Assembly (NCBI GenBank): GCA_021166835.1
Contig: JAJPEN010000062.1
Location: 62,001 to 126,000 of the forward strand
Length of the DNA stretch: 64,000 bases
Origin: Burkholderiaceae bacterium
GTDB taxonomy: Bacteria > Pseudomonadota > Gammaproteobacteria > Burkholderiales > Burkholderiaceae
Direction: 5' to 3'
Made by a program: the position numbers and the translations under genes. Of the stretch, positions 15,596 through 32,491 are shown piece after piece. Position 1 is the first letter of the stretch. Each line of letters starts with the position of its first letter. The notes under the pieces are model-generated. The model made no database searches. It was not told where the DNA came from and saw only the letters and a program-made list of their open reading frames with translations.

Positions 15596-15649
15596 CGCGT
15601 CTCCTGTTGCTCGTCCGCTCGCGGCCGTCCGATCCACTCGCGATGCGGT

Positions 15650-16504
15650 TCAACCGATCGCCGCGGCGCAACGCGCACCGGCAGGCTCGCCGGTGGGCAT
15701 CGGGCCGCCGCCGAGGTACGCGCGCACCACGTCCGGATGCGACAGCACCTCGTGCGGAGTCCCGTCGACCAGGTACCGGCCGTGATCGAGCACGTACAGC
15801 CGGTCGGCGAGGTCGGCGACCATCTGCATGTCGTGCTCCACCCAGAGGATCGGTATCCGCGCCTCGTGCTGGATGCGCAGGATGAAGCGCGCGAGATCCT
15901 CGCGCGCGTCGCGGTTCAGGCCGGCCGAAGGCTCGTCGAGCAGCAGCACCGACGGCTCCATCGCGAGTGCGCGCGCGAAGCCGACGATCTTCTGCTGCGC
16001 GAACGACAGATCGGCCACGCGCCGGTGGCGCAGCGCCGACAGCTCGACGAAATCGAGCACCTCCTCGCAGCGACGCCGGTGAACGACCTCGGCTTCACGC
16101 ACCGATCGGGTGAAGAGCGCCTCGGACAGCGGCCGCGTTCCGATGCGCGCGTGACGCCCGACGAGCAGGTTCTGCAGGACCGTGAGATGCGGAAACAGTT
16201 CGCCGTGCTGGAAAGTGCGCGCGACGCCGACGCCGGCGATCGCGTGCGGCCGTCTGCCGACGAGATCGTGCTCGTGGAAACGGATGCGGCCCGACTGCGG
16301 ACGATAGATGCCGCAGATGCAGTTCAGCACGCTCGTCTTTCCGGCGCCGTTCGGTCCGATGAGCGCGAGCAGTTCGCCCGCGCGCAGTGCGAGCGACACG
16401 TCGTCGAGCACGGCCAGTCCGCCGAAATGCAGCGACACGCGCTCCAGCGCAACGACGACATCGGCCGGCGCAGGGCCGCCAACGCGCGCCGCCGGCTCAG
16501 CCAT
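15650..16504 (-). CDS. livG: ABC transporter ATP-binding protein, LivG type (set A)
   Basis: ATPase of a HAAT importer, 284 aa. Walker A GPNGAGKTSV, Q-loop region FQHGELFPHL, Walker B VLLLDEPSAGLN, H-loop WVEHDMQMVADLADR. The ABC signature is atypical (LSFAQQK in place of LSGGQ), within the range seen in LivG proteins. The ATG at 16504 was chosen because it overlaps the livF stop (16497) by a few bases; the longer open frame starts inside livF in another frame. Last gene of transporter set A, followed by the GcvT-like gene. Confidence 0.92.
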   Translation of the reverse strand: MAEPAARVGGPAPADVVVALERVSLHFGGLAVLDDVSLALRAGELLALIGPNGAGKTSVLNCICGIYRPQSGRIRFHEHDLVGRRPHAIAGVGVARTFQHGELFPHLTVLQNLLVGRHARIGTRPLSEALFTRSVREAEVVHRRRCEEVLDFVELSALRHRRVADLSFAQQKIVGFARALAMEPSVLLLDEPSAGLNRDAREDLARFILRIQHEARIPILWVEHDMQMVADLADRLYVLDHGRYLVDGTPHEVLSHPDVVRAYLGGGPMPTGEPAGARCAAAIG

Positions 16505-17333
16505 ACCATCTCCGGCTGCGCCGGTACTGCTTGACGTCCCGGTAGCTGCGTCGCCCGGCGCCGCCCGCACCGAGATAGAAGTCCTGCACGTCCTGGTGTC
16601 CGGACAGCCGGCCGCGGTCGCCGTCGAGCACGATGCGGCCGTTCTCGACGATGTAGGCGTAGTCGGCGATGCCGAGCGCCACCGGGGCGTTCTGCTCGAC
16701 GAGCAGGATGCTCATGCCGAGGTCGCGGCGGATCGCGCACAGCCGCTCGGCGAGTTGCTCGACGACGATCGGAGCGAGCCCGAGCGAGAGTTCGTCGACG
16801 AGCAGCAGGCGCGGTGCGCACATCAGCGCGGAGCCGATCGCCAGCATCTGGCGCTCGCCGCCCGACAGGTACCCGGCCTCGCGCTCGCGCAGCCGCGCCA
16901 GCGCAGGGAAGTATTCGTAGACCGCCTGGCGCATCGACGCACCCGCGGCGGCTCGCCGCCCGACGACCGCATCGAGGTTCTCCTCGACGCTGAGGTTCTC
17001 GAACACCTTGTCGCGCTCCGGCACGAGCACGATGCCGCGCCCGGTGACCCAGTGGGGCGCGCGGTTGGCGATCGCTTCGCCGTCGAAGCAGATCGTGCCC
17101 TCGCTCACGCGTGCGTCGTCGACACCGAGAAAGCCCGAGATCGCGCGCAGGATCGTCGTCTTGCCTGCGCCGTTGCTGCCGAGCAGCGCAACGATCTGCC
17201 GGTCGAGTACCTGCAGCGAGACTCCCTGCACGGCAATGGCGATGCGGTGGTAGGTGACCTCGACCTGGTCGAGCTCGAGCAGCGGCGACGGCTGCCGGGC
17301 CGCGCTTTCCGTTTCGCGAAAACCCGTGCTCAT
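16497..17333 (-). CDS. livF: ABC transporter ATP-binding protein, LivF type (set A)
   Basis: ATPase of a HAAT importer, 278 aa. Walker A GSNGAGKTTI, signature YLSGGERQMLAIGSAL, Walker B LLLVDELSLGLAP (Leu where most have Pro), H-loop LLVEQNAPVALGIADYAY. A basic tail of about 25 residues extends past the usual LivF end. The ATG at 17333 forms an ATGA overlap with the stop of the upstream LivM gene, so the longer open frame reading through LivM is not the gene. Confidence 0.92.
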   Translation of the reverse strand: MSTGFRETESAARQPSPLLELDQVEVTYHRIAIAVQGVSLQVLDRQIVALLGSNGAGKTTILRAISGFLGVDDARVSEGTICFDGEAIANRAPHWVTGRGIVLVPERDKVFENLSVEENLDAVVGRRAAAGASMRQAVYEYFPALARLREREAGYLSGGERQMLAIGSALMCAPRLLLVDELSLGLAPIVVEQLAERLCAIRRDLGMSILLVEQNAPVALGIADYAYIVENGRIVLDGDRGRLSGHQDVQDFYLGAGGAGRRSYRDVKQYRRSRRWYG

Positions 17334-18406
17334 CAACGGCTCGCCGCCAGCGGCCGCTGGCGGAACGGCCACAGCAGGAACCAGTCCTGGATGCGCCGCC
17401 AGACGCCGACCAGTCCCTGCGGCTCGAACACGAGAAAGCCGATCATCACCAGTCCGAAGGCCGCGTAGTTCACCGCGAACACCATTCCGGAGACGCGCTG
17501 CGCGAAGGGCATCCACTGCATCGCCGCTTCGATCGCGTAGGGAAACAGCACGACGAAGGCGGCACCGAGCAGCGCACCGAGCAGCGAGCCCATTCCGCCG
17601 ACGATCACCATCGCGATGTACTGGATCGACAGGAACAGCGAGAAAGCCTCGACGGAGACGAAGCCGCGGTAATAGGCGAACAGGCATCCGGCGATCGACG
17701 TCATCGTTGCGCTGACGACGAAGGCGAGCAGCTTGTACGCGGGCACGCCGACGCCGAGCGCCTCGGCGACCGCCTCGCCGTCGCGGATCGCCTGCCACGC
17801 ACGGCCGGTCTTCGCGCGCAGCAGGTTGATGCAGACGAGCAGCGTCGCGATGCACGCAACGAGCAGCACCGCATACCATTCGCGTCCGCTGTCGAGCGTC
17901 CAGCCGCCGATCTGCGGCGGGTCGACGACGATTCCCGTGGAGAAGCCTCGTCGCACCTCGTACTCGCCGCCCAGGTAGGCGACGATGAAGTGCAGCGCGA
18001 GCGTGCTCACCGCGAGATACAGCCCGCGCAGGCGAAGCGACGGCAGGCCGAACACCAGGCCGAGCAGCGCGCCGACCGCGGCCGATGCGGGCAGCGTCAC
18101 CCAGAACGAAGCGCCGAGCTCCTTGAACAGGATGCCTGTCGTGAATGCACCGGCTGCGAGCAGCCCGGCATGGCCGAGCGAGATCTGTCCGGCGAAGCCG
18201 GTGAGCAGCATCAGCGCGAGCGCGCCGATCGAGGCGAGAAACACCTGGTTGGCGAGATCGAGGAGGAACGCGTCGGCGAGCCACGGGAACGTCGCCAGCG
18301 CCGCGAGCGCCGCGAAGAGCCAGCCCCGCTGCGTGCGCGTCTGGATCAGCCGCAGGTCCTGCGCGTAGTCGATCCGGTAGTAGCCGCTCGCGTGGATCCT
18401 AGACAC
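17333..18406 (-). CDS. livM: HAAT ABC transporter permease, LivM type (set A)
   Basis: Inner-membrane permease of 357 aa with about nine hydrophobic segments and the LivM motif LLTGFAGQISLGHAGLLAAGAFTTGIL. A GTG at 18406 is the start and overlaps the livH TAG by 8 bases. Downstream text RAKTGRAWQAIRDGEAVAEALGVGV is the conserved cytoplasmic EAA-like loop of this family. Coupled to livF by an ATGA overlap. Confidence 0.92.
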   Translation of the reverse strand: MSRIHASGYYRIDYAQDLRLIQTRTQRGWLFAALAALATFPWLADAFLLDLANQVFLASIGALALMLLTGFAGQISLGHAGLLAAGAFTTGILFKELGASFWVTLPASAAVGALLGLVFGLPSLRLRGLYLAVSTLALHFIVAYLGGEYEVRRGFSTGIVVDPPQIGGWTLDSGREWYAVLLVACIATLLVCINLLRAKTGRAWQAIRDGEAVAEALGVGVPAYKLLAFVVSATMTSIAGCLFAYYRGFVSVEAFSLFLSIQYIAMVIVGGMGSLLGALLGAAFVVLFPYAIEAAMQWMPFAQRVSGMVFAVNYAAFGLVMIGFLVFEPQGLVGVWRRIQDWFLLWPFRQRPLAASR

Positions 18407-19271
18407 GATCGATCTCCTCGCGCGTGCCGAACAGCCCCCAGGGACGCGCGACGAGCATCGCCAGCAGGATGAAGAACGGCGCGACGTCGGACAGCAGCGG
18501 ATCGACGTACTGGATCAGCAGCACCTCTGCGGCGCCGACGATCAGCGAGCCGATCAGCGCGCCGACGAGGCTGTCGAGGCCGCCGACGAGTGCCGCCGGG
18601 AACGCCTTCAGGCCGATCGTCACCATCGTCGCCTGCAGCCCGGAGTCGAGCGCGATCAGCATGCCGGCCAACCCGCCCGTGAAGGTCGCCAGGCCCCAGG
18701 CAAGCGCGTAGACGCCGTGCAGGCGGATTCCGCGCTGCGCGGCGAGCAACGGATTCTGGCCGGCGGCCCGCATTCGAATCCCCCATCGCGTATGGCGAAG
18801 GAATGCGAACAGCCCCGCATAGACGAGCGCGGTGAGAACGACGAGCGCGAGACTCGCGGCCGAGATGCGCGCGTCTGCGCCGACGTGGATCGACGGATTC
18901 GTCCAGCCGAGCTCGGCCAGCGGATACTCCTGCTGTGCGCCCCAGACGAGCGTAACGACGCCGCGCAGCAGGATGCCGAGCGCGATCGTGCACAGCACGG
19001 CGGCGAGCACCGACTCGCCGGTCATCCGCAGCATCAGCCCCCAGTAGACGGCAATCCCGACGACGAGCGCGAAGCCGCCCGCTGCCGCGAGCGCGAGCCC
19101 GGGATGCCCGCCGAACAGCGATGCGGTGGCGAGCAGCCCGTAGGCGCCGAGCATCATCAGCTCGCCATGCGCCAGGTTGAGCACCCTGCTCACCCGGTAG
19201 ACGAGCACGTAGCCGCAGCTGATCAGCGCATAGATCGCCGTCAGTACCACGATATTCACGGCGAGCTGCAT
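18399..19271 (-). CDS. livH: HAAT ABC transporter permease, LivH type (set A)
   Basis: Inner-membrane permease of 290 aa. Family hallmarks: NIVVLTAIYALISCGYVLVYR at the start, VLNLAHGELMMLGAYG, RMRAAGQNPLLAAQRGI as the cytoplasmic loop, and LVGGLDSLVGALIGSLIVG toward the C-terminus. The ATG at 19271 lies about 50 bases after the receptor gene stop. With the adjacent LivM, LivF, LivG and receptor it forms a complete importer. Confidence 0.93.
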   Translation of the reverse strand: MQLAVNIVVLTAIYALISCGYVLVYRVSRVLNLAHGELMMLGAYGLLATASLFGGHPGLALAAAGGFALVVGIAVYWGLMLRMTGESVLAAVLCTIALGILLRGVVTLVWGAQQEYPLAELGWTNPSIHVGADARISAASLALVVLTALVYAGLFAFLRHTRWGIRMRAAGQNPLLAAQRGIRLHGVYALAWGLATFTGGLAGMLIALDSGLQATMVTIGLKAFPAALVGGLDSLVGALIGSLIVGAAEVLLIQYVDPLLSDVAPFFILLAMLVARPWGLFGTREEIDRV

Positions 19272-20532: not shown

Positions 20533-22425
20533 CTAGCCGGTCAGCCCGGCCGTGCTGCCCGCCACCAGCGCTTCCTCGCGATCGTCGTACATCGACTCGA
20601 CCAGGTCGCGGAAGCGCTCGTACATCTGCTTGCGCTTGACCTTGCGCGTCGGCGTGACCGGCTCGCCCTCCTCCTCGGGGTCGAGCGCCTTGGGCAGGAT
20701 GCAGAAGCGCTTGATCTGCTCGACGCGCGCCAGCCCGGCATTGGCGCGATCGATCTCGGCCTGCAACAGCCCGCGCACCTGCGGATGATGGGCGAGGCTG
20801 GTGAATCCGGTATAGGGAATCCCCCGCACGCGCGCCCAGTCGGACACCGCGTCGAAATCGATCTCGACCAGCGCGCAAAGGTACTTGCGTGCGTGCCCGA
20901 AGACCGCGATTTCGGCGACGTAGGGACTGCCGCGCACGAGATTCTCGACGTAGGACGGCGAGATCGTCTTGCCGCCGGCCGTCACGATGAAATCCCGCAC
21001 GCGATCGACGATGCGAAGCCTGCCGCCGACCCACGCGCCGGTGTCGCCCGTGCGCAGCCAGCCGCGCTCATCGAAGGCGGCACGCGTGCCCTCCTCGTCG
21101 CCCCAGTAGCCGACGAACAGGTCGGGCGAGCGAACGAGGATCTCGTCGTGCTCGCCGAGCTCGATCTCGACGCCGGGCGGCGGCGTGCCGACGTCGCCGG
21201 GGCGGGGAAAGGGGCCGGTCTGGCCGGCAATGATCGCGCCGGCGGTCTCGGTCTGGCCGTACATCTCGACCACGTTCACTCCCCAGACCTGCCACAGCGC
21301 CATCGTCTCGGGCGGCAGCGGCGCGCCGCCCGAGACGACGAGGCGCAATCGGTCGAAGCCGAGCTTCGACAGGGCCGGGCGAAAGACGGCCGCACGGGCC
21401 ACGCGCCCGGCAAACGTATCCGGGTCTTCGGTACGACCGTCCCATCGCGCGCGTGCCTGTCGGCGGCCGACCTGCATCGCGGCTTCGTAGCAACGGCGCT
21501 TCAACGGACTCGTGCTGCCCAGCGCGATGAGCACCTGGGAGGCGAACTTCTGCAGATAGCGCGGAACGGTGAACAGCACCGTGGGCGCGACCTCGAACAT
21601 CGTCGTCGGCATCTCGTCGAGGCTCTCGCCGATGTGAGGAACCAGCGAGGACATCAGCGGAAGCGTGATGGCGACGTCGCGCCCGAGCACGTGGCACAGC
21701 GGCAGGTAGATCACGGTGCGCTGCTCGCCCTGCGCGAGAATCGGGTAGTGCTCGACGATGCCGCAGGCTCCCGCGAGGTGTGCGCCGTGCGTGACGAGCG
21801 CGCCCTTCGGGTTGCCGGTCGTGCCCGAGGTGTAGACGATGAACGCGGGATCGGCGCCCGAGAGTTCGCCGGCCATCGCCGCGAGCGTATCGACGTCACC
21901 GCGGTGGTCGTCGACCAGTTCGCGATACGGCAGCAGCCGTGCATCGTCGTACGCGAACATCGCGTCGGTATCGACGACGACGATGCGCCGCAGCGCCGGC
22001 AGCCGCTGCGCGATCGGCAGGATCTTGTCGACGTACTCCTGGTTCTCGGCGACGAACAGGCAGGCGCCGCCGTCGCGCATCTGGTACTCGAGTTCGGCCT
22101 GCGAGGCGGTGGGGTAGATGCCGTAGACGATGGCGCCCGCCGCCTGTGCGGCCAGGTCGACGACGATCCATTCCTCGCACGGATCGCCCATGATCGCGAC
22201 GCGATCGCCCTTGCGCACGCCGAGCGATCGCAGCGCCGCGGCGCATCGCGCAACCATCGCCGCGAGCTGCGTGAAGCTTCGTTCGCGGTACAGGCCGAGA
22301 TCCTTCGAGCGCAACGCGACGGCATCGGGCGTCGCCCGCGCGCGTTCGACGAGCAGGCGCGGTGCCGTCCATTCGCGAAGGGTACGGGCGTCGATCGCGA
22401 ACACCGGCGAGGCAGCAGGACGCAT
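20533..22425 (-). CDS. Long-chain-type AMP-forming acyl-CoA synthetase
   Basis: ANL-superfamily CoA ligase, 630 aa, with the organisation of FadD15-like long-chain or aryl acyl-CoA synthetases. P-loop-like motif YTSGTTGNPKGAL near residues 194-206, A5-type motif MYGQTETAG near 395, RTGDTGAWVGGRLRIVDRVRDFIVTAGGKTISPSYVENL near 470-510, and C-terminal RKVKRKQMYERF. First gene of the long minus-strand block. Its promoter region (22459-22482) has a TTGACA -35 with a palindrome in the spacer, downstream of tetR. Likely controlled by that TetR protein (inference). Confidence 0.92.
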   Translation of the reverse strand: MRPAASPVFAIDARTLREWTAPRLLVERARATPDAVALRSKDLGLYRERSFTQLAAMVARCAAALRSLGVRKGDRVAIMGDPCEEWIVVDLAAQAAGAIVYGIYPTASQAELEYQMRDGGACLFVAENQEYVDKILPIAQRLPALRRIVVVDTDAMFAYDDARLLPYRELVDDHRGDVDTLAAMAGELSGADPAFIVYTSGTTGNPKGALVTHGAHLAGACGIVEHYPILAQGEQRTVIYLPLCHVLGRDVAITLPLMSSLVPHIGESLDEMPTTMFEVAPTVLFTVPRYLQKFASQVLIALGSTSPLKRRCYEAAMQVGRRQARARWDGRTEDPDTFAGRVARAAVFRPALSKLGFDRLRLVVSGGAPLPPETMALWQVWGVNVVEMYGQTETAGAIIAGQTGPFPRPGDVGTPPPGVEIELGEHDEILVRSPDLFVGYWGDEEGTRAAFDERGWLRTGDTGAWVGGRLRIVDRVRDFIVTAGGKTISPSYVENLVRGSPYVAEIAVFGHARKYLCALVEIDFDAVSDWARVRGIPYTGFTSLAHHPQVRGLLQAEIDRANAGLARVEQIKRFCILPKALDPEEEGEPVTPTRKVKRKQMYERFRDLVESMYDDREEALVAGSTAGLTG

Positions 22426-22458: not shown

Positions 22459-22482
22459 CTATTATTCTATAGAATGTGTCAA
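22459..22482 (-). promoter_or_regulatory. Promoter with 12-bp palindromic operator, upstream of the acyl-CoA ligase block
   Basis: On the minus strand a consensus -35 TTGACA (22482-22477) is followed by the perfect palindrome ATTCTATAGAAT (22464-22475) inside the spacer, and a weak -10 around 22454-22459. The -35 overlaps the tetR stop. The ATG of the ligase is at 22425. A repressor dimer on this palindrome would block polymerase. The local A+T-rich island contrasts with the surrounding G+C-rich sequence. Confidence 0.6.
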
Positions 22483-23168
22483 GCAAGGCGGCGCGCGCGC
22501 CTCTTCGCTCCAGGGCCCGTCGTGCGCGCCGCCTCCGACACGACGCCGCCGCACAGCAGCACGCTGAAGTTCGAAGCGATCGTCTCGAGGTCCAGACCCG
22601 GTTCCCGGCCGTACCACGCAGCCGCCGAGTTGCACAAGGCGAGCAGCGCGAGCGTCGCGAGGCGGCAATGCAGGTCGCCGCGCAGTTCGCCGGAGGCGAC
22701 GCCGGCCTCGAAGATTCCCTGGATGATCGCCTCGTAGCGGGCCGAGAACCTTCCGATCCGCCGGCGCGCAGCGTCGGACAGATGCTGCCGTTCGCTCAGG
22801 AAGACGCGCACGAAGTCGTGCCTCTCCGAGGTGGCGCGCAGGTGGCTTCCGATCACCTGCGCCAGGCGCTCGCACGCGGTGCCGGGCGCACGGGCCGCCG
22901 CCGACGCGTGCTCGATGAAGCCCTCGACGCCTCGCTGGCAGATCGATTCGAGCGCGTCTTCCTTCGAGGAGAAGTAGTAGTAGAGGCTCGCCTGGCGGAT
23001 GTGCAACCGGTCGGCGATGTCCTGCGTCGTCGCGCCGTGATATCCACGCTGGGCGAAGACGGCCGCGGCCGCCTCGATCACCTCGTCGGCCCGCCTGCGC
23101 GGACTGCGGGCGGAGCGGCGCGGCGGAACGGGAGCCGACTTCGCCTCGGGGCGCGGTTGCGTGGCCAA
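22479..23168 (-). CDS. TetR-family transcriptional regulator
   Basis: 229 aa. N-terminal helix-turn-helix near residues 28-75: VIEAAAAVFAQRGYHGATTQDIADRL..., with the conserved ASLYYYFSSKEDALESI. The C-terminal ligand domain is of the TetR_C type found in fatty-acyl and aromatic acyl-CoA regulators. It starts at TTG (23168) behind a near-perfect ribosome site GAGGTGA. It lies between the minus-strand transporter/ligase block and the plus-strand Rieske/corrinoid operon, and an inverted repeat with TCTA/TAGA half-sites occurs in the promoter on each side, so it probably represses both. An acyl-CoA thioester as inducer is inference. Confidence 0.92.
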   Translation of the reverse strand: MATQPRPEAKSAPVPPRRSARSPRRRADEVIEAAAAVFAQRGYHGATTQDIADRLHIRQASLYYYFSSKEDALESICQRGVEGFIEHASAAARAPGTACERLAQVIGSHLRATSERHDFVRVFLSERQHLSDAARRRIGRFSARYEAIIQGIFEAGVASGELRGDLHCRLATLALLALCNSAAAWYGREPGLDLETIASNFSVLLCGGVVSEAARTTGPGAKRRARRLA

Positions 23169-23219: not shown

Positions 23220-23248
23220 TTGTTTGTCTATCAATCAATAGATATAAT
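23220..23248 (+). promoter_or_regulatory. Promoter with inverted-repeat operator for the Rieske/corrinoid operon
   Basis: A perfect -10 TATAAT (23243-23248) sits 17 bases after TTGTTT (23220-23225). The spacer holds an inverted repeat TCTAT-N6-ATAGA (23227-23231 and 23238-23242). The half-sites resemble those of the palindrome at 22464-22475, with different spacing. The predicted transcript starts near 23255, leaving about 40 bases to the GTG at 23296. Confidence 0.65.
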
Positions 23249-23295: not shown

Positions 23296-24360
23296 GTGAA
23301 CTATCTCCGCAACGCGTGGTACGCCGCCGGATGGTCCGGCGAGATCGCCTCCCGATCGGCATTGCAGCGCACGCTGCTCGACGAAGCGATCGCCCTCTTT
23401 CGCGATGAATCCGGCGCCGTGCACGCGATCGCCGATCGCTGCCCGCACCGCTTCGCCCCGCTCTCGCTCGGCAAGGTGGTCGGCGAGGCGCTGCAGTGTC
23501 CGTATCACGGCCTGCAGTTCGACGGCAGCGGTCATTGCGTGCACAACCCGCACGGCAACGGAACGATTCCGAAGGCCGCCCGCGTCCCCGCCCATCCGGT
23601 CGTCGAGCGCCACGGTGCCGTCTGGATCTGGATGGGCGACCCGGCACGGGCCGACCCGGCGTCGATCCCCGACTTCGGCCTGTTCGACGAAGACCGCAAC
23701 TACGTCGGCCGGGGATACCTGCGCGTCGAGGCCAACTACCGCTTCGGCACCGACAACATCATGGACCTCAGCCACATCGCATACGTGCACGGGCAGAGCC
23801 TGGGGAGCGACGACATGCGGCGCTCCGAGAACAGCTGCGAGCAGGACGGGCGCACGATCTGGTCGAGGCGACGCAACTACGGCGAAAAGCTGCCGCCCGC
23901 CGTCCTCGGCCATTACCGTTCGAAGCCCGACGCGCTGTGGGACCGTTCCTTCGACGTGCGATGGGATCCGCCGGCATCGCTGCTGCTGCTCGTCGGCGGG
24001 GTGCCGAGCGGGCAATCGCTCGAAGACAAGCGGCCGCTGCCGTTCGCGCATCTGTTCACGCCGGAAACCGCGACCACCTCGCACTACTGGTTCGCGGCGA
24101 GCTATCCGAAGGAACTCGGGCCGAAGTACGAAGCGCGTGCGCAGGAGGCCCTGGCCTTCCTCGCCGGGCCCTTCGAGCGCGAGGATCTCCCGATGCTGCA
24201 GGCGCAGCAGCGCGCCGTGGGCGATCGCGACTTCTGGGACCTCAAACCGGTGATGCTCGCCGGCGACGCCGCTGCCGTTCGCGCCCGGCGCCTGCTCGAC
24301 AAGCTGATCGAGGACGAACGCGAAGCGCTTCACACGCAGCCTTCCTTCGCCGTCGGCTGA
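23296..24360 (+). CDS. Rieske non-heme iron oxygenase, DdmC/VanA-type O-demethylase candidate
   Basis: 354 aa, the size of the oxygenase components of dicamba monooxygenase (DdmC) and vanillate demethylase (VanA), which oxidise a methoxy methyl group and release formaldehyde. Rieske ligands Cys49, His51, Cys68, His71 (CPHRFAPLS and CPYHGLQFDG), followed by CVHNPHGNG, a stretch I recognise from DdmC. The mononuclear iron site is DNIMDLSHIAYVH (His160, His165 with Asn154/Asp157). The GTG at 23296 has ACGGAG 6 bases upstream; the earlier TTG in frame overlaps the -10 and is rejected. No reductase or ferredoxin partner of VanB type is encoded in the operon. First gene of the C1/corrinoid operon. 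Substrate unproven. Confidence 0.88.
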   Translation: MNYLRNAWYAAGWSGEIASRSALQRTLLDEAIALFRDESGAVHAIADRCPHRFAPLSLGKVVGEALQCPYHGLQFDGSGHCVHNPHGNGTIPKAARVPAHPVVERHGAVWIWMGDPARADPASIPDFGLFDEDRNYVGRGYLRVEANYRFGTDNIMDLSHIAYVHGQSLGSDDMRRSENSCEQDGRTIWSRRRNYGEKLPPAVLGHYRSKPDALWDRSFDVRWDPPASLLLLVGGVPSGQSLEDKRPLPFAHLFTPETATTSHYWFAASYPKELGPKYEARAQEALAFLAGPFEREDLPMLQAQQRAVGDRDFWDLKPVMLAGDAAAVRARRLLDKLIEDEREALHTQPSFAVG

Positions 24361-24364
24361 TCCG

Positions 24365-25810
24365 ATGCTCGCGCTGCGCCGATGGTCGGTGCGTCGAGCG
24401 CACACGCTGTGGCGGCTCTGGCGCATCCTCGCCGGATGCGCGCCGCGCTGCGCGCCGCTCGTGCGCCGCATCGGCCGTGCGCGAAGCGAATCGCTGCTTC
24501 GCCCGCTCGAGCGCGCCGCGAAGGGACTTTTCTTCGATTGCCGGATGTGCGGGCAGTGCGTCCTCTCGTCCACCGGAATGGCGTGCCCGATGAACTGTCC
24601 GAAGCGGATGCGCAACGGCCCTTGCGGCGGCGTGCGCGCCGACGGCGGATGCGAGGTGCAGCCGGCGATGCGCTGCGTCTGGCTCGAGGCGCTGGACGGA
24701 CAGAAGGCGATCGCCTCGCGAGGCGGCGATGCGGCGGCGACGCGGATCCTGCCGCCGCTCGATCATTCGCGCCGCGGATCCTCGACCTGGCTGCAGGCGA
24801 TCTGCGATGCGTCTTCCTTGCGAACGCCGCAGGAGCACGCCTGGTCGACGGAATACGGCATCCGCGAACCGGCGGCAACGGGCGACTTCGAAGAAGCGTG
24901 CCGCTCGAAGCGGATCGTCGTCACCGTCGAGGTGGCACCGCCCGATTCCGCCGACCCGGCGGCGCTCGTGCGCCGCGCAGCGCATTTCGACGGACTGGTG
25001 GATGCCATCAACATCACCGACGGCGCCGGCGGTAACTGCCACATGTCGAGCGCGGCGGCCGCGGCCATTCTCGCGGCGAGCGGACGCACTGCGGTCTGCC
25101 AGGTTGCCTGCCGCGACCGCAACCGGATCGCGATCCAGGGCGACCTGCTCGGCGCGGCGGCACTCGGCGTGCGCAACGTGCTGTGCCTCACCGGCGACGA
25201 CGTCAGTCGCGGCGACCATCCGCAGGCGCGCCCCGTGTTCGACCTCGATGCGGTGTCGTTGCTCGGCATCGCGCGCAACATGTCCGAACGCGGCGAGTTC
25301 GCTTCGGGGCGCCGGATCGAGGCGATGCCTCGGCTGTTCCTCGGCGCGACCGCGAATCCCTTCGTTCCGCCGTATCGCGATCGGGTGGCGAACCTCGAGA
25401 AGAAGATCGACGCCGGCGCGCGCTTCGTGCAGACGCAGTTCTGCTTCGACGTCGCCGCGCTCGCCGATTTCATGCGCGAAGTGCGTGCGCGCGAGCTGCA
25501 CCGGCGCTGCGCGATCCTCGTCGGCGTCGGCACGCTGGGCAGCGCCCGCGCGCTGCGCTGGATGGCGGCGAACGTGCCCGGCGTGCACGTCCCGGAGCCG
25601 CTGCTGCTTCGCATCGAGGGCACTGTCGACCAGAAGGCCGAGGCTCGGCGGATCTGCCTGGAGACGATCGACGCGGTGCTCGGCATCGACGGCGTGCGCG
25701 GGGTGCACCTGATGGGGCACCGCAACGAAGAGGTTCTTGCCGGCATCATCGTCGCGTCGGGACTGCGCGAACGGGCGCCGGCTCGGGCCGCATCACTGAA
25801 GCCCGCGTGA
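24365..25810 (+). CDS. MetV-MetF fusion: zinc/cysteine domain plus methylenetetrahydrofolate reductase
   Basis: 481 aa. The N-terminal region (about 55-110) is the MetV-like Cys-rich domain, with Cys59, 62, 65, 74, 78, 87, 96 and 104 in CRMCGQC, CPMNCPK and NGPCGG. The C-terminal part (about 190-465) is a MetF-type barrel with VTVEVAPPDSADP, DAINITDG, LCLTGDDVSRGDHPQ and ARFVQTQFCFD. MetF interconverts 5,10-methylene- and 5-methyl-tetrahydrofolate. In acetogens MetV and MetF are usually separate subunits; here they are one chain. The gene begins 4 bases after the Rieske stop. In this operon it would oxidise methyl-folate made by the methyltransferases, or make it. A hairpin overlaps its stop codon. 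Confidence 0.9.
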   Translation: MLALRRWSVRRAHTLWRLWRILAGCAPRCAPLVRRIGRARSESLLRPLERAAKGLFFDCRMCGQCVLSSTGMACPMNCPKRMRNGPCGGVRADGGCEVQPAMRCVWLEALDGQKAIASRGGDAAATRILPPLDHSRRGSSTWLQAICDASSLRTPQEHAWSTEYGIREPAATGDFEEACRSKRIVVTVEVAPPDSADPAALVRRAAHFDGLVDAINITDGAGGNCHMSSAAAAAILAASGRTAVCQVACRDRNRIAIQGDLLGAAALGVRNVLCLTGDDVSRGDHPQARPVFDLDAVSLLGIARNMSERGEFASGRRIEAMPRLFLGATANPFVPPYRDRVANLEKKIDAGARFVQTQFCFDVAALADFMREVRARELHRRCAILVGVGTLGSARALRWMAANVPGVHVPEPLLLRIEGTVDQKAEARRICLETIDAVLGIDGVRGVHLMGHRNEEVLAGIIVASGLRERAPARAASLKPA

Positions 25811-25817
25811 AGCGGGC
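25801..25817 (+). other. Small GC hairpin over the metVF stop, before the corrinoid-protein ribosome site
   Basis: GCCCGC (25801-25806) and GCGGGC (25812-25817) form a 6-bp stem with a 5-base loop containing the TGA. The ribosome site GGAG of the next gene starts 4 bases later. There is no T-run, so this is unlikely to be a terminator; it could tune translation or processing. Confidence 0.4.
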
Positions 25818-25830
25818 GCTGGAGAAACCC

Positions 25831-26493
25831 ATGGACGAAACGAAGATCGCGGAACGCCGGCTGGTCGAGCAGCTGGCCGACATGAACGAGGACGAGGCGC
25901 TCGCGCTGGCGCGGCGCATGCTACTCGAGGAGAAGACCGACCCGCTGCACGTGCTCGCGCTGTGCCGCGAAGCGATGGACATCGTCGGCAAGCGCTTCGA
26001 GGAAGGCGAATACTTCCTGCCCGAGCTGGTGCTGGCCGGCGAGATGCTCGAGACGATCGGAGCGATCGCCAGACCGCTGATCGTGAACGGCCCGGGGCAG
26101 GAGCCGGCGAAGCACGGCAAGGTGCTGATCGGCACCGTGCACGGCGACCTGCACGACATCGGCAAGAACATCGTCTCCTTCATGCTCGACATCAACGGCT
26201 TCGAAGTGCGCGACATCGGCATCGACGTGCCCGCCGAGCGCTTCGTCGAGGAGATCCGTGCCTGGCGCCCCGACGTCGTCGGGCTGTCGGGCTTCCTCAC
26301 GCTGGCCTTCGACTCGATGAAGGAGACGGTGGAGGCGATCGAGTCGGCCGGGCTGCGCGATTCGGTGCACATTATGGTCGGCGGCGGCCAGGTCGACGAG
26401 ACGGTGCGCGGGCACACGCGCGCCGATGCGTTCGGCACCAATGCGGTCGAAGCGGTGGGACTGTGCAAGGAATGGATGGGGGTGGCCGCATGA
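25831..26493 (+). CDS. Corrinoid (methylcobalamin-binding) protein of a methyltransferase system
   Basis: 220 aa, the size of MtaC/MtbC/MttC-type corrinoid proteins. An N-terminal helical cap (residues 1-90: NEDEALALARRMLLEEKTDPLHVLALCREAM, GEYFLPELVLAGEML) is followed by the Rossmann-like B12 domain with the lower-ligand motif Asp106-x-His108-x-x-Gly111 in GTVHGDLHDIGKNIV, then VVGLSGFLT and MVGGG. It carries the methyl group between the MT-I (next gene) and MT-II enzymes. The ATG at 25831 has GGAGAAACCC upstream; its stop overlaps the next start (ATGA). Confidence 0.95.
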   Translation: MDETKIAERRLVEQLADMNEDEALALARRMLLEEKTDPLHVLALCREAMDIVGKRFEEGEYFLPELVLAGEMLETIGAIARPLIVNGPGQEPAKHGKVLIGTVHGDLHDIGKNIVSFMLDINGFEVRDIGIDVPAERFVEEIRAWRPDVVGLSGFLTLAFDSMKETVEAIESAGLRDSVHIMVGGGQVDETVRGHTRADAFGTNAVEAVGLCKEWMGVAA

Positions 26494-27773
26494 ACGCGCC
26501 GGCGGCGACCTCCGAGGCGGAGCCGGTCGTGCCGGAAAGCGTCGCGCAATACGACGCGCGCTGGCAGCGAATCGTCGACTGCGTCGCGCTGAAGCGCCCC
26601 GATCGCATGCCGGTCGCGCTGTACGCCACGTTCTGGCTCTGTCGCTACGGCGGGGTCAGTCACCGCACGCTGATGTACGACTACGAGCGCACGCGCGAGA
26701 TCGCCGAGCGCGCGATCCTCGAATTCGAACCGGACGTCTACAGCCCGATGATCCTCGGTACGGCGCAGGGGCCGTCGCTCGAGGCGATTGGCTACCGGCA
26801 GCTGCAGTGGCCGGGGCACGGCGTCGGAGAGGATCAGCCGTTCCAGTATCTCGATCGCGAGTACATGACGGCCGACGAGTACGACGACTTCCTGTTCGAC
26901 CCTACCGGCTACTACCTGCACACCTATCTGCCGCGCGTCGCCTCGGCCTTCGAGGGCTTCGAGCAGCTGCCGATCTTCCCCGGCCTGCACTACACGCGGC
27001 TCGTGGCGGCGATGCGTTCGTTCGGCCGGCCCGCGGTGCGCGCGGCGCTCGATCGCGTGACGAAGGCCGCCGAGGAAATCGACCGCTTCGTGCGTCATCA
27101 CGTCGACTTCACCGATCGCATGCGATCGCTCGGCTATCCGTGCACCAACGGCACGACCGGCATCGCACCGTACGACTTCATCGCCGACTACTTCCGCGGC
27201 GCGCGCGGCATGATGACCGACCTGTACCGGCGAAAGGACAAGCTGCTCGAGCTGCTCGACAAGGCGGCGGTGTTCCTGCTGAAGCAGGTCGTCGCGACCG
27301 GACGCGCGTCGGGCAACCCGGTGGTGTTCATCCCGGTGCACTGGGCGCCCGACGCGTTCATGTCCGACAAGCAGTTCCGCGAGTTCTGGTGGCCGTCGTT
27401 CCGCAAGCTGATGATCGGAATGATCGACGCCGGGCTGATCCCGATGCCGCTGTGGGAAGCCGACTGCACGCGCAGGCTCGAGATCATCCGCGACGTTCCG
27501 CCGGGCAGGTGCATCTACTGGTTCGAGCGCACCGACATGGTTCGCGCATTCGAGGTGCTCGGCGACGTGGTCGCGCTGCGCGGCAACCTCTCGCCGTCGC
27601 TGATGACCACGGGCACGCCGCAGGAGGTCGACGCATCGGTTCGCCATCTCGCGGAGAACGTGTTCCACAGGGGCGGACGGCTGATTCTCGATGCGGCCTT
27701 CGGGCTTCCCGACGAGACGCCGGTGGCCAACGTGCGCGCGATGTTCGACGCGGCGCGCAGGTACGCGGGCTGA
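26490..27773 (+). CDS. Uroporphyrinogen decarboxylase-family methyltransferase (MT-I candidate)
   Basis: 427-aa protein of the UROD-like superfamily, which includes methylcobamide:CoM methyltransferases and demethylating corrinoid methyltransferases. It begins RIVDCVALKRPDRMPVALYATFW, like other UROD homologues, and has MILGTAQGPSLEAIGY, PVHWAPDAFMSDKQFREFWWPSFRKLM and LWEADCTRRLEIIRDVP; His in VHW and Cys in EADC are candidate metal ligands. Coupled by ATGA to the corrinoid protein and followed at once by the activator genes, so it most likely demethylates the substrate and loads the corrinoid protein. True haem-pathway HemE is about 350 aa and lacks this context. The methyl donor is unknown. 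Confidence 0.88.
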   Translation: MNAPAATSEAEPVVPESVAQYDARWQRIVDCVALKRPDRMPVALYATFWLCRYGGVSHRTLMYDYERTREIAERAILEFEPDVYSPMILGTAQGPSLEAIGYRQLQWPGHGVGEDQPFQYLDREYMTADEYDDFLFDPTGYYLHTYLPRVASAFEGFEQLPIFPGLHYTRLVAAMRSFGRPAVRAALDRVTKAAEEIDRFVRHHVDFTDRMRSLGYPCTNGTTGIAPYDFIADYFRGARGMMTDLYRRKDKLLELLDKAAVFLLKQVVATGRASGNPVVFIPVHWAPDAFMSDKQFREFWWPSFRKLMIGMIDAGLIPMPLWEADCTRRLEIIRDVPPGRCIYWFERTDMVRAFEVLGDVVALRGNLSPSLMTTGTPQEVDASVRHLAENVFHRGGRLILDAAFGLPDETPVANVRAMFDAARRYAG

Positions 27774-28486
27774 TGGCGAGCGGTCGCTGCCGGGTGCCCG
27801 GCGTCCTGGGCCGCGCCGCGCGGTCATCGGCCGACGCGCAGTTCGCGCTCGCGCGCCTGCGCGCACAGGCTCTGGAGATGGCTCGCGAGGAAGCGCTCGT
27901 CGATGCCGCCTGGTGCTACCGGATCGTTCCGCTCGATTCGCCGCCCGGCGCATGGCTGAACGCGGGCGGCGTATCCCTGCACGCGCCGCGCCTGCTGCCC
28001 GAATCGGGCAGGCTCACGGCGCTCGCCTGCGCGGTCTGCACGATCGGCCCCGCGCTCGAACGGCGCGTGCGCGCGTTGTTCGAGCAACGCCGCGCATCGT
28101 TGGCGGTCGCGCTCGACCAGTTGGGCAACGAGGCGCTCTTCGAGACCGCGCGACGCGTGCAGGACCGGATCGCGCTCGCCGCCGCGCGCGAGGGGCTGTC
28201 GGTCGCGGGCGAATTGCGCCCGGGCGACCCCGGGCTCGATACGAGCGCGCAGGGTCCGGTACTGCGGCTGGCCGACGCGGCGCGCATCGGATGCCGCGTG
28301 AACGACGGCGGTCTGCTCGAGCCGCTGAAATCGACGTCGATCGTGCTCGGCGTCGGCATCGATCTCCCGGCGGTCGAATGGTCGCGCTGCGACCCCTGTC
28401 CTTCGCGAGACCGCTGCCGGATCGCAGCGAATCGTTCGCCGCGGCAACCGATCGTCGCTGCCGCCGCAGCAGCCCCGACCCCGTGA
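27773..28486 (+). CDS. MetH-activation-domain-like protein with C-terminal Cys motif
   Basis: 237 aa. Central text CTIGPALERRVRALFEQRRASLAVALDQLGNEALFETARRVQDRI, then ELRPGDPGL and LADAARIGCRVNDGGLLEPLKSTSIVLGVG, follows the pattern of small 'vitamin B12-dependent methionine synthase activation domain' proteins found next to corrinoid methyltransferase genes in anaerobes. The C-terminus adds CDPCPSRDRC, a possible metal or cluster site. MetH activation domains bind S-adenosylmethionine for reductive methylation; whether this short form does so is unknown. It shares one base with the MT-I stop and overlaps the next gene (GTGA), so it sits in a tightly coupled set with the activator. Confidence 0.75.
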   Translation: MASGRCRVPGVLGRAARSSADAQFALARLRAQALEMAREEALVDAAWCYRIVPLDSPPGAWLNAGGVSLHAPRLLPESGRLTALACAVCTIGPALERRVRALFEQRRASLAVALDQLGNEALFETARRVQDRIALAAAREGLSVAGELRPGDPGLDTSAQGPVLRLADAARIGCRVNDGGLLEPLKSTSIVLGVGIDLPAVEWSRCDPCPSRDRCRIAANRSPRQPIVAAAAAAPTP

Positions 28487-30324
28487 ACACGACCTCCCCG
28501 CCCCTCGTCCGGCTCGCGTTCCCGCAGCTCGAACGGACGATCCCCTGCGAGCCCGGGGAGACGGTGCTCGAGAGCGCGCGCCGGCACGGCGTGCGCATCG
28601 TCGGCGCGTGCGGGGGCCGTGGAAGCTGCGGCAGCTGCGAGGTGCGCATCGTCGAAGGCGAGCACGCGGTTTCGAACGAAGCGGACGACGGCGACCACGC
28701 GTGCCGCGCACGTTCCGCGAAGACGTCGCCTGCCGCCTGGGTGCGCGCCTGCCGCATCCGGCCGGGCTCCGATTGCACGATCGAGATCTCGCCGCGTTCC
28801 CTTGCGGCGGTCGTGCGCACGGATGCCACGCCCGATGCGCGGGAAGTGCTGGTCCCGCACACCGTCATCGGCAGTCGCGACGTGGAACTGTCGGCGCCGA
28901 CGCTGGACGATGCCGAGTGCGACGTCTCGCGCCTGCTGCGCGCGCTCGGCCTGCCTAACGGCGCCTTCGACCTCGCCGCGGCGCGCGAGATGCCGACCCG
29001 CCTGCGCGAGCATCGATGGAAGGTACGCGCGCGGCTGCGCGGCGACCGGCTGATCGGCGTGGCTGCCCCGGGGCGTCCGAACCTGGGCCTGGCCATCGAC
29101 CTGGGCACGACCAACGTTGCCGGCTTCCTCGTCGACCTGGACAGCGGCGGGCAGCTCGCGACGCTCGCGATCGAGAACCCGCAGGGCGCCTGGGGTGCCG
29201 ACCTGATCACGCGCATCGACGCTGCCGCGCGATCGAAGGAAAGCTTCGCGGCACTGCGCGACGGCGCCCGCGAGGCGATCGACGTGCTCGCGCACGACCT
29301 GTGCCGCGCGGTGGATGCGGACACCGACGACATCGTCGATGCCGCCGTCTGCGGCAACACCGCCATGCACCATCTGCTGCTCGGCCTTCCCGTCGCGTCG
29401 CTCGGCCGCAGCCCGTTCGTTCCCGCGCTGCGCGACGCGCTCGACGTCAAAGCACGCGAGATCGGACTCGCCTTCTGCGCCGGCGCCCGGGTTCATTTCG
29501 CACCGAACGTCGGCGGCTTCGTCGGGGGCGATCACTGCGCCGCCCTGCTCGCCACGCAGGCACAGTGGAGCGGCGCGCGCACCGCGCTCGTCCTGGACAT
29601 CGGCACGAACACCGAGATCACGCTGGTCCACGACGGCGCATTGCATTCGGCCTCGTGCCCTTCGGGCCCTGCGCTCGAGGGCGGCAACATCCGCTGCGGC
29701 ATGCGCGCGGCCGAAGGCGCGATCGAGCGCGTGGCGGTCGACCGGGACGGCGCCTTCTCGCTGCGCGTGATCGGCCGATCGGCGCCGCTCGGCTTGTGCG
29801 GCTCGGGCGTGGTCGACGCGATCGCGGCCTTGCGCGGGATCGGTGCCCTCGACGACCGCGGCCGGCTGATCCGTGCGCATCGGCACGTGCATTCACTGGA
29901 AGGCAAGGCGGTCGCCCGGCTCGCGCCGGGTGTCCTCTTCACGCAGGGCGACGTCCGCTCCGTGCAACTGGCCAAGGCGGCCATCCGCACCGCCACCGAA
30001 CTGCTGCTGCAGCGCGCGCGATGCGAAGCCGCGGACATCGAACGATTCGTCGTCGCCGGCGCCTTCGGCGCATGGCTCGATGTCGAGCGATGCATCGAGA
30101 TCGGTCTCTTTCCCGAGCTGCCGCGCGAGCGTTTCGTCCAGGTCGGCAATGCCGCCGGCGCGGGAATCCGCCGGATGCTCGTATCGGAAAGCGCGCGCAA
30201 GCGCGCGCGCGAAATCGCACGGCAATGCCGCTACGTCGAGCTGAGCACGACGCCGGAGTTCCAGAAGACATTCCTGCGCTGCATCGGCTTCGATCGCGGC
30301 ACGGACGCGAGGAGAACGACATGA
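28483..30324 (+). CDS. RACo-like corrinoid activation/regeneration protein, [2Fe-2S] plus actin-like ATPase
   Basis: 613 aa. N-terminal plant-type ferredoxin domain with Cys43, Cys49, Cys52 (ACGGRGSCGSCEV) and a later Cys (74 or 90); then a middle domain and an actin-like ATPase domain (LGLAIDLGTTNVAGFLVDL near 195-215; AVCGNTAMHHLLLGLP; LDIGTNTEITL; VAGAFGAWLD). This is the layout of reductive activators of corrinoid proteins (RACo, and AE of O-demethylases), which use ATP to reduce inactive Co(II) to Co(I). The GTG at 28483 overlaps the previous stop; the longer frame upstream is not coding. The matching corrinoid protein is three genes upstream. Family assignment firm. Confidence 0.93.
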   Translation: MNTTSPPLVRLAFPQLERTIPCEPGETVLESARRHGVRIVGACGGRGSCGSCEVRIVEGEHAVSNEADDGDHACRARSAKTSPAAWVRACRIRPGSDCTIEISPRSLAAVVRTDATPDAREVLVPHTVIGSRDVELSAPTLDDAECDVSRLLRALGLPNGAFDLAAAREMPTRLREHRWKVRARLRGDRLIGVAAPGRPNLGLAIDLGTTNVAGFLVDLDSGGQLATLAIENPQGAWGADLITRIDAAARSKESFAALRDGAREAIDVLAHDLCRAVDADTDDIVDAAVCGNTAMHHLLLGLPVASLGRSPFVPALRDALDVKAREIGLAFCAGARVHFAPNVGGFVGGDHCAALLATQAQWSGARTALVLDIGTNTEITLVHDGALHSASCPSGPALEGGNIRCGMRAAEGAIERVAVDRDGAFSLRVIGRSAPLGLCGSGVVDAIAALRGIGALDDRGRLIRAHRHVHSLEGKAVARLAPGVLFTQGDVRSVQLAKAAIRTATELLLQRARCEAADIERFVVAGAFGAWLDVERCIEIGLFPELPRERFVQVGNAAGAGIRRMLVSESARKRAREIARQCRYVELSTTPEFQKTFLRCIGFDRGTDARRTT

Positions 30325-31223
30325 ACCCGGCACAAACGGCCGACGCCGGCCGCTTCGACCTGCGCATCATCGGCGAACGGATCAATCCCGGTTTCCGCAG
30401 CACGCGCGCGCTGTTCGACGACGAGGATTTCCCGGGAATCCAGGCGCTCGCCGTACGGCAGGTGCAATCGGGCGCGAGCTGCCTGAACGTGAACGTCGGA
30501 GCGCGGGCGCAGACCGACGCCCGATTCGTCGCCCGGGTGATCCGCGCGATCCAGGAAGCGGTCGACGTTCCGTTGTGCTTCGATTTCCCGCACCCGGAGG
30601 TGCAGCGCGTCTGCCTGCAGACTTATGATGCCGGGCGGGCCGGAGGACGACTGCCGGTCGTCAACTCGATCACCGAGCACCGGTGGGCGCTGATGGAGCT
30701 GTACCGGCTGCATCCGTTCCAGGTCGTCGTGATGGCTTCCGAACGCATGGTCGATGGCGTGGCGCGCGCCAACAAGACCGCCGCCGACATCGCGTCGACG
30801 GCGCGCCGCGCGGCGCGCAGGCTGCGCGACGAACACGGGATGCCGATGCACGACATCCTGATCGACGTGTCGGTGAGCGCGATCGCCGCCGACTCCGAAG
30901 GTCTGGGTCGCGCCACGCTCGACGCCATCGCGGCGATCGGCAGCGACCCCGAGCTGGCCGGCCTCCACCTGATGGGCGGGCTGTCGAACATCGGCCAGCA
31001 GTTGCCCGCGAAGGCGGCCGACGGCTCGGACCTCAAACTGTGTCTGGAGAACGCCTTCCTGACGCTCGCCGTTCCGCTCGGCTTCGACACGGTGCTCGGC
31101 ACGCCGTGGCGAGGCTACGCGCCGTTGCCGGCGGATCATCACGTGATGAAGACGTACCGCCAGTTCCTCGAATGCAGCGGCACCGACGCGTTGCGCGCGG
31201 TGCGTCGGCTGTACCGCGGCTGA
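30321..31223 (+). CDS. Pterin-binding MtrH/DHPS-like methyltransferase (MT-II candidate)
   Basis: 300-aa TIM barrel of the dihydropteroate synthase-like superfamily, with LRIIGERINPGFRST at the start (the DHPS/MtrH/AcsE pterin signature), GASCLNVNVGA, and VDVPLCFDFPHPEVQRVCL. These proteins transfer a methyl group between a corrinoid protein and tetrahydrofolate. Together with the UROD-type MT-I, the corrinoid protein and the activator it completes the four-part methyl-ether/methylamine demethylase scheme. The ATG at 30321 (GGAG upstream) overlaps the activator stop (ATGA). Not FolP: C1-transfer context and divergent C-terminus. Confidence 0.9.
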   Translation: MNPAQTADAGRFDLRIIGERINPGFRSTRALFDDEDFPGIQALAVRQVQSGASCLNVNVGARAQTDARFVARVIRAIQEAVDVPLCFDFPHPEVQRVCLQTYDAGRAGGRLPVVNSITEHRWALMELYRLHPFQVVVMASERMVDGVARANKTAADIASTARRAARRLRDEHGMPMHDILIDVSVSAIAADSEGLGRATLDAIAAIGSDPELAGLHLMGGLSNIGQQLPAKAADGSDLKLCLENAFLTLAVPLGFDTVLGTPWRGYAPLPADHHVMKTYRQFLECSGTDALRAVRRLYRG

Positions 31224-31237
31224 TCGGGCTCATCTCG

Positions 31238-32491
31238 ATGACTCGGGAAGCCACCCCGCCGGCCATCCCGGACGATGCACCGGCCGCGCCCGCGTTCGCC
31301 ATCGTCGTCGACGACTGGTTCGACGGCGAGCGAAGGCGCAGCGAAACGACCACCTTCCACATAGTCGACGGACGCATCGCCGACATCGATCCGGGCGACC
31401 GCGCCGTCGAGCTCGCCGCGCGCGGACTGGCCGTACTGCGCGGCGCGTTCCTGATGCCCGGGCTCGTCGATGCGCACGTGCATCTGTTCCTCGACGGCGC
31501 CGCGACGGATCCCGAAGCCCGCGCGCGACACCTGAAGGAGCCGATCGAGCATCTCCTCGAAACCGCACGGCGCAATGCACGACGCTCGCTCGCCTGCGGC
31601 GTGACGCTCGTGCGCGACGCGGGCGATCGGCACGGGATCAACCACCGGATCCGCACCGAGGCAGCACGCGCATCGAGCGGACTGGCCGGGGTCCGATCGG
31701 CCGGCTGCGGCATTCGTGCGCAGAAACGCTACGGCGCGTTCATGGCGACCGAGGCGGGCGACGACGACGAGATTCGCCAGGCGATCGCGCAGCGCGCCGC
31801 CGACAGCGACGAGATCAAGCTGATCCTCACCGGACTGATCGATTTCGCAGCCGGCTCCGTCACCGACGAGCCGCAGTTCACCTTCGGCCAGGCGCGGCTC
31901 CTCGTCGAGACGGCGCACGCATGCGGGCGGCGCACTTTCGCGCATTGCAGCGGTCCGAAGGGACTCGAAATCGCGGTCGCGGCAGGCGTCGATTGCATCG
32001 AGCACGGTTTCTTCGTGACGCCGCAGATCCTCGAACGGATGGCCCGGCGCGGGATCGCCTGGACGCCGACCTTCGGACCGGTTCATTTCCAGTGGGCGAA
32101 CGCGCCGGCACTCGGCTGGTCGTCGGAGACGGCCGACAAGCTGCGCCGCATGCTGGACGATCACGCCCACCACCTGAAGCTCGCGGTCGACGCCGGGGTG
32201 CCCGTGCTGCTCGGCACCGATGCGGGAAGCATGGGAGTCGCGCACGGCGACGCGGTATTCGACGAGATCGATCGCTATGGCGAAGCCGGATTGTCGCTCG
32301 AGCAGATCCTCGCCGCGGCAACGTCGAACCCGCGGCGCCATTTCGGCTTCGGGCACGCGCGGCTCGACCGCGGGGCCCCGTTGGACGCCGTGCTCCTCGC
32401 GCGCTCGCCTTTCGACGACCGGGACGCACTGCGCCGGCCGCTGCGCGTCTGGCGCCCTCAGCGCGAATCGAGCTGCGCGATCAGCGACTGA
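31238..32491 (+). CDS. Amidohydrolase-superfamily metal-dependent hydrolase
   Basis: 417 aa, imidazolonepropionase/prolidase-like amidohydrolase. Metal-site motifs: GLVDAHVHLFL (HxH), CGRRTFAHCSGPKGLEIAV, DCIEHGFF and LLGTDAGSM. The likely metal-bridging Lys is in EIKLILTG. The last gene of the operon, 14 bases after the MT-II stop. Substrate unknown: it may trim an amide, lactone or imide from the methylated compound handled upstream, which would help define the pathway. Its last 34 bases overlap the end of the convergent histidine kinase gene. Confidence 0.85.
   Translation: MTREATPPAIPDDAPAAPAFAIVVDDWFDGERRRSETTTFHIVDGRIADIDPGDRAVELAARGLAVLRGAFLMPGLVDAHVHLFLDGAATDPEARARHLKEPIEHLLETARRNARRSLACGVTLVRDAGDRHGINHRIRTEAARASSGLAGVRSAGCGIRAQKRYGAFMATEAGDDDEIRQAIAQRAADSDEIKLILTGLIDFAAGSVTDEPQFTFGQARLLVETAHACGRRTFAHCSGPKGLEIAVAAGVDCIEHGFFVTPQILERMARRGIAWTPTFGPVHFQWANAPALGWSSETADKLRRMLDDHAHHLKLAVDAGVPVLLGTDAGSMGVAHGDAVFDEIDRYGEAGLSLEQILAAATSNPRRHFGFGHARLDRGAPLDAVLLARSPFDDRDALRRPLRVWRPQRESSCAISD

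Follow-up and report, generated by a model that had tools for sequence, protein, structure and literature searches.

The 64,000-nucleotide stretch analyzed here (the window) comes from a Burkholderiaceae bacterium (GenBank assembly GCA_021166835.1, contig JAJPEN010000062.1, positions 62,001 to 126,000) and carries on its plus strand a run of eight successive genes (23296–32491 in window coordinates), which are separated by gaps of no more than 20 bases or overlap by 1 or 4 bases. In order, they encode a Rieske oxygenase, a MetV-MetF fusion protein (MetVF), a corrinoid protein, a methyltransferase I (MT-I), a protein resembling the activation domain of methionine synthase (MetH), a RACo-type activator, a methyltransferase II (MT-II) and an amidohydrolase. 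The run probably specifies a corrinoid-dependent, oxygen-independent demethylase for a methoxylated aromatic compound, which would transfer the methyl group to tetrahydrofolate (THF) for oxidation via MetVF and is clustered with an O2-dependent O-demethylase. A wider proposal is advanced only tentatively: a single operon would provide two mechanistically unrelated demethylases, an O2-dependent Rieske enzyme and a Co(I)-dependent corrinoid enzyme, for the same aryl methyl ether, permitting O-demethylation across the oxic-anoxic boundary, and anaerobic O-demethylation by nitrate- and iron-reducing bacteria would have its genetic basis in the seven-gene cassette that runs from MetVF to the amidohydrolase.

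Components of the gene run

Protein families were assigned with Pfam at E 0.001 and with NCBIfam, and the closest sequences of solved structure were taken from the Protein Data Bank (PDB). An initial annotation, made from the sequence, had described the five central genes (25831–31223), which lie on a single strand and nearly or fully overlap, as a complete set of MT-I, corrinoid protein, MT-II and activating enzyme. All five genes were recovered with the proposed families, and the set is encoded together, as judged from Pfam matches and solved relatives and, for the MetH-activation-like protein, from AlphaFold2 and Foldseek. The corrinoid protein (25831–26493; PF02607 and PF02310) has other corrinoid- or cobalamin-binding proteins as its nearest solved relatives, and its DxHxxG motif reads DLHDIG. 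MT-I (26490–27773; PF01208) is a member of the UROD superfamily with the UROD fold and has CdmB as its nearest solved sequence (E 1.3e-34), to which it aligns over residues 177–422. RACo (28483–30324; PF00111, PF17650, PF17651 and PF14574) is an ATP-dependent corrinoid activator by family, has an N-terminal [2Fe-2S] domain and matches the AcsV model at E 7.4e-110, which is under the curated cut-off. For MT-II (30321–31223; PF00809; 2yck, E 2.7e-15), the nearest solved sequences are methyl-THF:corrinoid methyltransferases.

At E 0.001, neither Pfam nor NCBIfam gave a match for the MetH-activation-like protein (27773–28486), and it was assigned by fold. Its AlphaFold2 model has a mean predicted local distance difference test score (pLDDT) of 89.9, and all 19 of its Foldseek matches at E ≤0.001 are MetH activation or reactivation domains (best 1j6r, E 9.3e-12). 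Three cysteines at its C-terminus, C206, C209 and C215, are invariant in 25/25 aligned sequences and possibly form a metal or Fe-S site.

The first gene of the run encodes the Rieske oxygenase (23296–24360; the gene start is taken as the GTG at 23296, and homology searches were run from 23293). The protein carries the domain pair of VanA, DdmC and GdmA, PF00355 with VanA_C (PF19112), and matches GdmA (7qwt, E 3.4e-70) and DdmC (3gb4, E 3.9e-69) nearly end to end at E about 1e-70. The name GdmA for entry 7QWT is that given in PMC12445004. By family, the window protein is closest to the O-demethylase-type oxygenases, and this is its predicted activity.

Conservation of the cassette, its hosts and its Rieske neighbors

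Gene neighborhoods were compared by scanning one genome per species across 84,980 species and taking the best 80 of 101 confirmed loci (L001–L080). Close relatives of MT-I are found in 59 of these (L001–L058 and L061), which record titles or the tree assign to Pseudomonadota and desulfuromonads, while the other 21 are distant (L059, L060 and L062–L080). A cassette gene was counted when tblastn returned at least 38% identity over at least a quarter of the query, with adjacency not required. The five-gene core is found in 37/59 close loci, which is why its association is taken to be more than chance, and all seven genes, with MetVF and the amidohydrolase included, are found in 26/59, many loci ending at contig ends. 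Counted gene by gene over the 59 loci, the corrinoid protein is the most frequent (49), followed by the activation-like protein (43), RACo (41), MT-II (38), and MetVF and the amidohydrolase (33 each); in nine loci, MT-I is unaccompanied in the fetched DNA by any of the other four core genes. With the threshold unchanged, the corrinoid protein was recovered in 15 of the 21 distant loci, RACo in five and the activation-like protein in one; none of them holds MetVF, MT-II or the amidohydrolase. The conserved unit is therefore larger than the five genes first annotated: as these recurrence counts show, that set was correct as far as it went but missed MetVF upstream (24365–25810; PF12225 and PF02219, a methylene-THF reductase by family) and the amidohydrolase downstream (31238–32491; PF01979), which usually closes the cassette. 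The amidohydrolase has no obvious part in methyl transfer.

Among named strains, all seven genes are found in Aromatoleum anaerobium (L007), with MT-I separate from the rest and on the opposite strand, and in Azospirillum sp. TSO22-1 (L011). In Thauera phenylacetica (L025), MT-I and the corrinoid protein were found together on one short contig; for A. bremense and Azoarcus sp. PA01, MT-I was the only gene observed. The loci led to 49 genomes, mostly metagenome-assembled genomes (MAGs), so that absences from them are soft. At least two MT-I matches, fragments counted, occur in 16 of these genomes, as would be expected if substrate-specific MT-I proteins share their partners. Tandem arrangements were also seen: L024 (3830–15911) has two successive cassettes, and in L047 (2750–5296) one corrinoid protein gene is followed by two MT-I genes. 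In another genome, an MT-I-like fragment with two stop codons (G021, contig C105, 73115–73537) is apparently a decayed copy.

A maximum-likelihood tree of 85 MT-I rows, from which matches that contained runs of X or fell short of 330 residues were excluded, places the window protein in a Pseudomonadota clade of 54 rows (support 100/100) whose nearest relatives are desulfuromonads. Alpha-, beta- and gammaproteobacterial rows are intermixed, a pattern suggestive of transfer. Two betaproteobacterial rows, L076 and L080, lie far outside the main clade. The closest relatives of the window MT-I are from Burkholderiales MAGs (96% and 95% identical), which agrees with the initial description of the host as a betaproteobacterium. 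That description also presumed a respiratory host, and the related genomes bear it out: acetyl-CoA synthase (CdhC) was found in 0/49, a COX1-type oxidase in 49/49 and NarG over its cut-off in 31/49. On this gene content, the cassette hosts are judged to be respirers, not acetogens.

The proximity of Rieske genes to MT-I was assessed in the same 49 genomes, which hold 81 MT-I matches and, in 30 of the genomes, 53 VanA_C matches. Fifteen of the 53 lie within 10 kb of MT-I, in 14 genomes, against an expectation of no more than 0.54. The statistic assumes independent matches and close kin are included (G001 and G002; G024, G042 and G047), so that the count stands and the calculated probability of 2e-18 does not. 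The order Rieske gene, GntR, reductase, MetVF, corrinoid protein and MT-I is shared by L028, L050, L056 and L061; in L031 the GntR gene is upstream and reversed, and in L011 the GntR, oxygenase and reductase genes follow the cassette. Three further loci (L016, L017 and L054) have MT-I 0.1–1.4 kb from Rieske genes with no other cassette gene in the fetched DNA. The initial annotation had remarked that it knew of no description of a corrinoid demethylase set combined with a Rieske oxygenase. None was found for the seven-gene cassette or its Rieske O-demethylase link among the papers listed by topic searches of open-licence literature, and the combination recurs near MT-I and so is not an oddity of one genome. 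A LigB-type ring-cleavage dioxygenase is present in 3/80 loci (L011, L036 and L044); the L036 protein, the one compared with the PDB, is nearest to protocatechuate 4,5-dioxygenase and then to gallate dioxygenase, enzymes of a type expected to use vanillate after its demethylation.

Proposed demethylation and competing explanations

In the proposed mechanism, MT-I would bind the aryl methyl ether, Co(I) of the corrinoid protein would accept the methyl group and MT-II would hand it to THF. MetVF would then oxidize methyl-THF to methylene-THF, which would enter host C1 oxidation and biosynthesis. RACo and the MetH-activation-like protein are predicted to re-reduce inactive Co(II) at the expense of ATP. 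The Rieske oxygenase, presumably co-transcribed with the rest of the run, could also open that methyl ether, or one related to it, with O2. In acetogens, methyl-THF enters the Wood-Ljungdahl pathway; with no acetyl-CoA synthase found in the related genomes, it would here be oxidized or go to biosynthesis. The MetV-MetF fusion in the cluster and FolD in 6/80 loci fit oxidation to methylene- and formyl-THF. The predicted substrate class, an aryl methyl ether, follows from the similarity of the Rieske protein to GdmA and DdmC, the recurrence of the Rieske link and the LigB-type neighbors. The demethylating role offered in the initial annotation is still the best reading of the gene set, and it is inferred here as well. 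The alignment of MT-I with CdmB, an enzyme placed near MtvB, OdmB, VdmB and MtoB (PMC13222342), counts in its favor.

Several observations weigh against this proposal. The motif E-x14-E-x20-H, which we take to be the zinc motif of VdmB and OdmB, is present in 0/34 MT-I sequences and so sets MT-I apart from these enzymes. Its absence is not decisive, because CdmB and the Moorella O-demethylase are likewise reported to lack zinc (PMC13222342). Comparison of folds does not set MT-I apart from HemE and other uroporphyrinogen decarboxylases, HemE being the initial annotation's example of a family whose membership would overturn its reading; by sequence models that outcome did not arise, and the scores are far below the hemE cut-off (32.7 versus 302.95 bits) and the MtaA/CmuA cut-off (30.5 versus 235.4 bits). 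The alignments also disagree on which MT-I residues face the His-x-Cys site of SCMT-like proteins (L081–L083): hidden Markov model alignment gives W322 and A324 for L082 and L083 and W322 and E323 for L081, and hhalign gives a gap. With regard to the Rieske enzyme, no reductase gene is found among the annotated genes near the window oxygenase, 38/53 VanA_C matches are not within 10 kb of MT-I, and 19/49 genomes have no VanA_C match, including Aromatoleum anaerobium, Thauera phenylacetica and four desulfuromonads. As far as the assemblies go, the corrinoid system in those genomes has no partner of that family.

Other features of MT-I bear on the kind of methyl donor. His-x-Cys occurs nowhere in the window MT-I, and F404 aligns with the second Cys of the SCMT-like proteins in every alignment. 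S-methyltransferases of the superfamily bind zinc with His-Cys-Cys, and in the O-methyltransferases one or both Cys are replaced by carboxylates or non-binding residues (PMC10418091). By this rule, a thiol substrate is unlikely for MT-I and an O-methyl substrate is favored. H284, E323, C326 and E346, invariant in 34/34 sequences, are active-site candidates.

The same chemistry with a different donor, either a haloalkane or a non-aromatic methyl compound, is unlikely but is the most probable of the competing explanations; the Rieske gene would then serve a neighboring pathway. CdmB, the nearest solved sequence, is a chloromethane methyltransferase that dehalogenates haloalkanes and converts no methoxyarenes, even though it is close to the O-demethylases MtvB, OdmB, VdmB and MtoB, so that kinship alone does not give the substrate (PMC13222342). 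CdmB does fall outside the 54-row clade, although its branch, of length 3.6, joins another long branch and the tree held only the printed stretches of its sequence. The genes that recur beside the cassette are of the VanA_C Rieske type, with LigB-type dioxygenases in the three loci named above, and these favor an aromatic methyl ether. A second concern is direction. MetF normally runs towards methyl-THF, and the cassette could therefore run backwards: MetVF would make methyl-THF, MT-II would load the corrinoid protein and MT-I would methylate an aromatic compound, as Emt does with oestrogens. Cobalamin-dependent oestrogen methylation is indeed described in the denitrifying Denitratisoma, but EmtA is related to MtmB and its donor is S-adenosylmethionine (PMC7448270), whereas MT-I here is of the UROD type. 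The recurring O-demethylase-type Rieske neighbor fits methyl removal, and the methylating direction is considered quite improbable. Least probable of all is a split methionine synthase, in which the corrinoid protein, MT-II and activation-like protein would correspond to three MetH modules, with a thiol as the methyl acceptor of MT-I. The activation-like protein does have the fold of the MetH activation domain, and matches to MetH modules are also found for MT-II and the corrinoid protein. Against this stand the missing His-x-Cys site of thiol methyltransferases, the presence of RACo in the cassette and the MT-I genes of L016, L017 and L054, which adjoin Rieske genes without other cassette genes.

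The individual parts of the demethylase proposed here are known already, and it is their arrangement and hosts that are new within the literature searched. MtvABC of Moorella and Odm/Vdm of Acetobacterium have the same four parts (a UROD-type MT-I, a corrinoid protein, a pterin MT-II and a RACo-type activator). As far as its parts tell, the window system would work as an acetogen O-demethylase, and kinship by ancestry is a separate matter. It differs from the acetogen systems in that its hosts appear to respire and no acetyl-CoA synthase was found in them, and in its frequent fixed cassette with the MetVF fusion, MetH-activation-like protein and amidohydrolase and its recurring link to a Rieske O-demethylase-type gene. 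CdmBCA of Acetobacterium dehalogenans (9rui) is similar in the size of MT-I (427 residues in the window versus 429) and in having MT-I and the corrinoid protein as separate proteins, but CdmB is excluded, on its long branch, from the MT-I clade; Cdm is suggested to be likely exclusive to anaerobes (PMC13222342). CmuAB of aerobic methylotrophs likewise moves methyl groups to THF by way of a corrinoid in bacteria that respire, but CmuA serves as MT-I and corrinoid protein at once (PMC13222342), unlike the separate genes at 25831–26493 and 26490–27773. EmtABCD of denitrifiers shares cobalamin methyl transfer on an aromatic compound and a nearby RACE-like protein (PMC7448270). In Emt the methyl group is placed onto the ring, and the window MT-I differs from EmtA in matching only PF01208 at E 0.001. 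The Rieske O-demethylases GdmA, DdmC and VanA resemble the window oxygenase. A survey reports mtxB genes in MAGs from 19 bacterial phyla, Proteobacteria being one of the main three, and describes expressed mttB homologs for its Proteobacteria but no expressed ether system (PMC10805028).

Methoxylated aromatics have reportedly been known for decades to be used by nitrate-reducing bacteria (Taylor is said to have described this in 1983), and a 2005 paper concerns, by its title, a nitrate-reducing Thauera and also Clostridium methoxybenzovorans. To our knowledge, no enzyme has been assigned to this use. The cassette points to cultivable test organisms, namely Aromatoleum anaerobium, Azospirillum sp. 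TSO22-1, Thauera phenylacetica, A. bremense and Azoarcus sp. PA01. If the proposal holds, corrinoid demethylation of the acetogen type would extend to respirers, the host could demethylate lignin-type compounds in the presence or absence of oxygen, and the result would bear on the fate of lignin methoxyl groups under fluctuating oxygen.

Regulation and other genes of the window

Divergent from the cassette lies a TetR/YsiA-like regulator (22479–23168, minus strand; PF00440, PF17932 and PF08359). Between it and the Rieske gene, a candidate promoter/operator was recognized by eye at 23220–23248 on the plus strand, with TTGTTT and TATAAT separated by 17 nt and the inverted repeat TCTAT-N6-ATAGA in the spacer. 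With one base left free, the pattern also occurs in L001 and L002, the two nearest relatives; of the 86 loci, the remaining 84 lack it. A promoter consensus scan did not call the site (0 found, 0.5 expected). If it is a promoter, both demethylases would be made together at any oxygen level.

The minus-strand genes beyond the regulator would fit a role in taking up and activating an aromatic acid: they include an acyl-CoA ligase, two sets of Liv-type transporters and a LigM-like protein. The ligase (20533–22425), which lies in the divergent transporter cluster, matches AMP-forming ligase models, and all 25 matches listed, of 100, are under the curated cut-offs. The LigM-like protein (14252–15637), also in that cluster, belongs to the folate-dependent LigM/DesA demethylase family (LigM 5x1i, E 9.9e-54; the DesA and LigM NCBIfam models under cut-off). 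Residues His60 and Tyr247, which we take to be the catalytic residues of LigM, are unmatched in its alignment with 5x1i when a tag offset of 3 is assumed, and its substrate may differ from that of LigM.

The initial annotation also placed a benzoyl-CoA reductase operon next to the cassette, a claim that finds little support. The genes in question, about 16 kb away at 47040–51455 (plus strand), encode two HGD-D subunits and an acyl-CoA dehydratase activase; their nearest NCBIfam models are BcrC (299.1 bits versus a cut-off of 421.15) and BcrB (223.3 versus 486.55), and they may represent a divergent aryl-CoA reductase or dehydratase. At 2911–6860 (minus strand), POR/DUF6537 and TPP-enzyme domains of a 2-oxoacid:ferredoxin oxidoreductase mark a possible low-potential electron source. 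The regions 511–19271 and 53442–58484 encode several sets of Liv-type ABC transporters, together with periplasmic binding proteins and a DctP binding protein.

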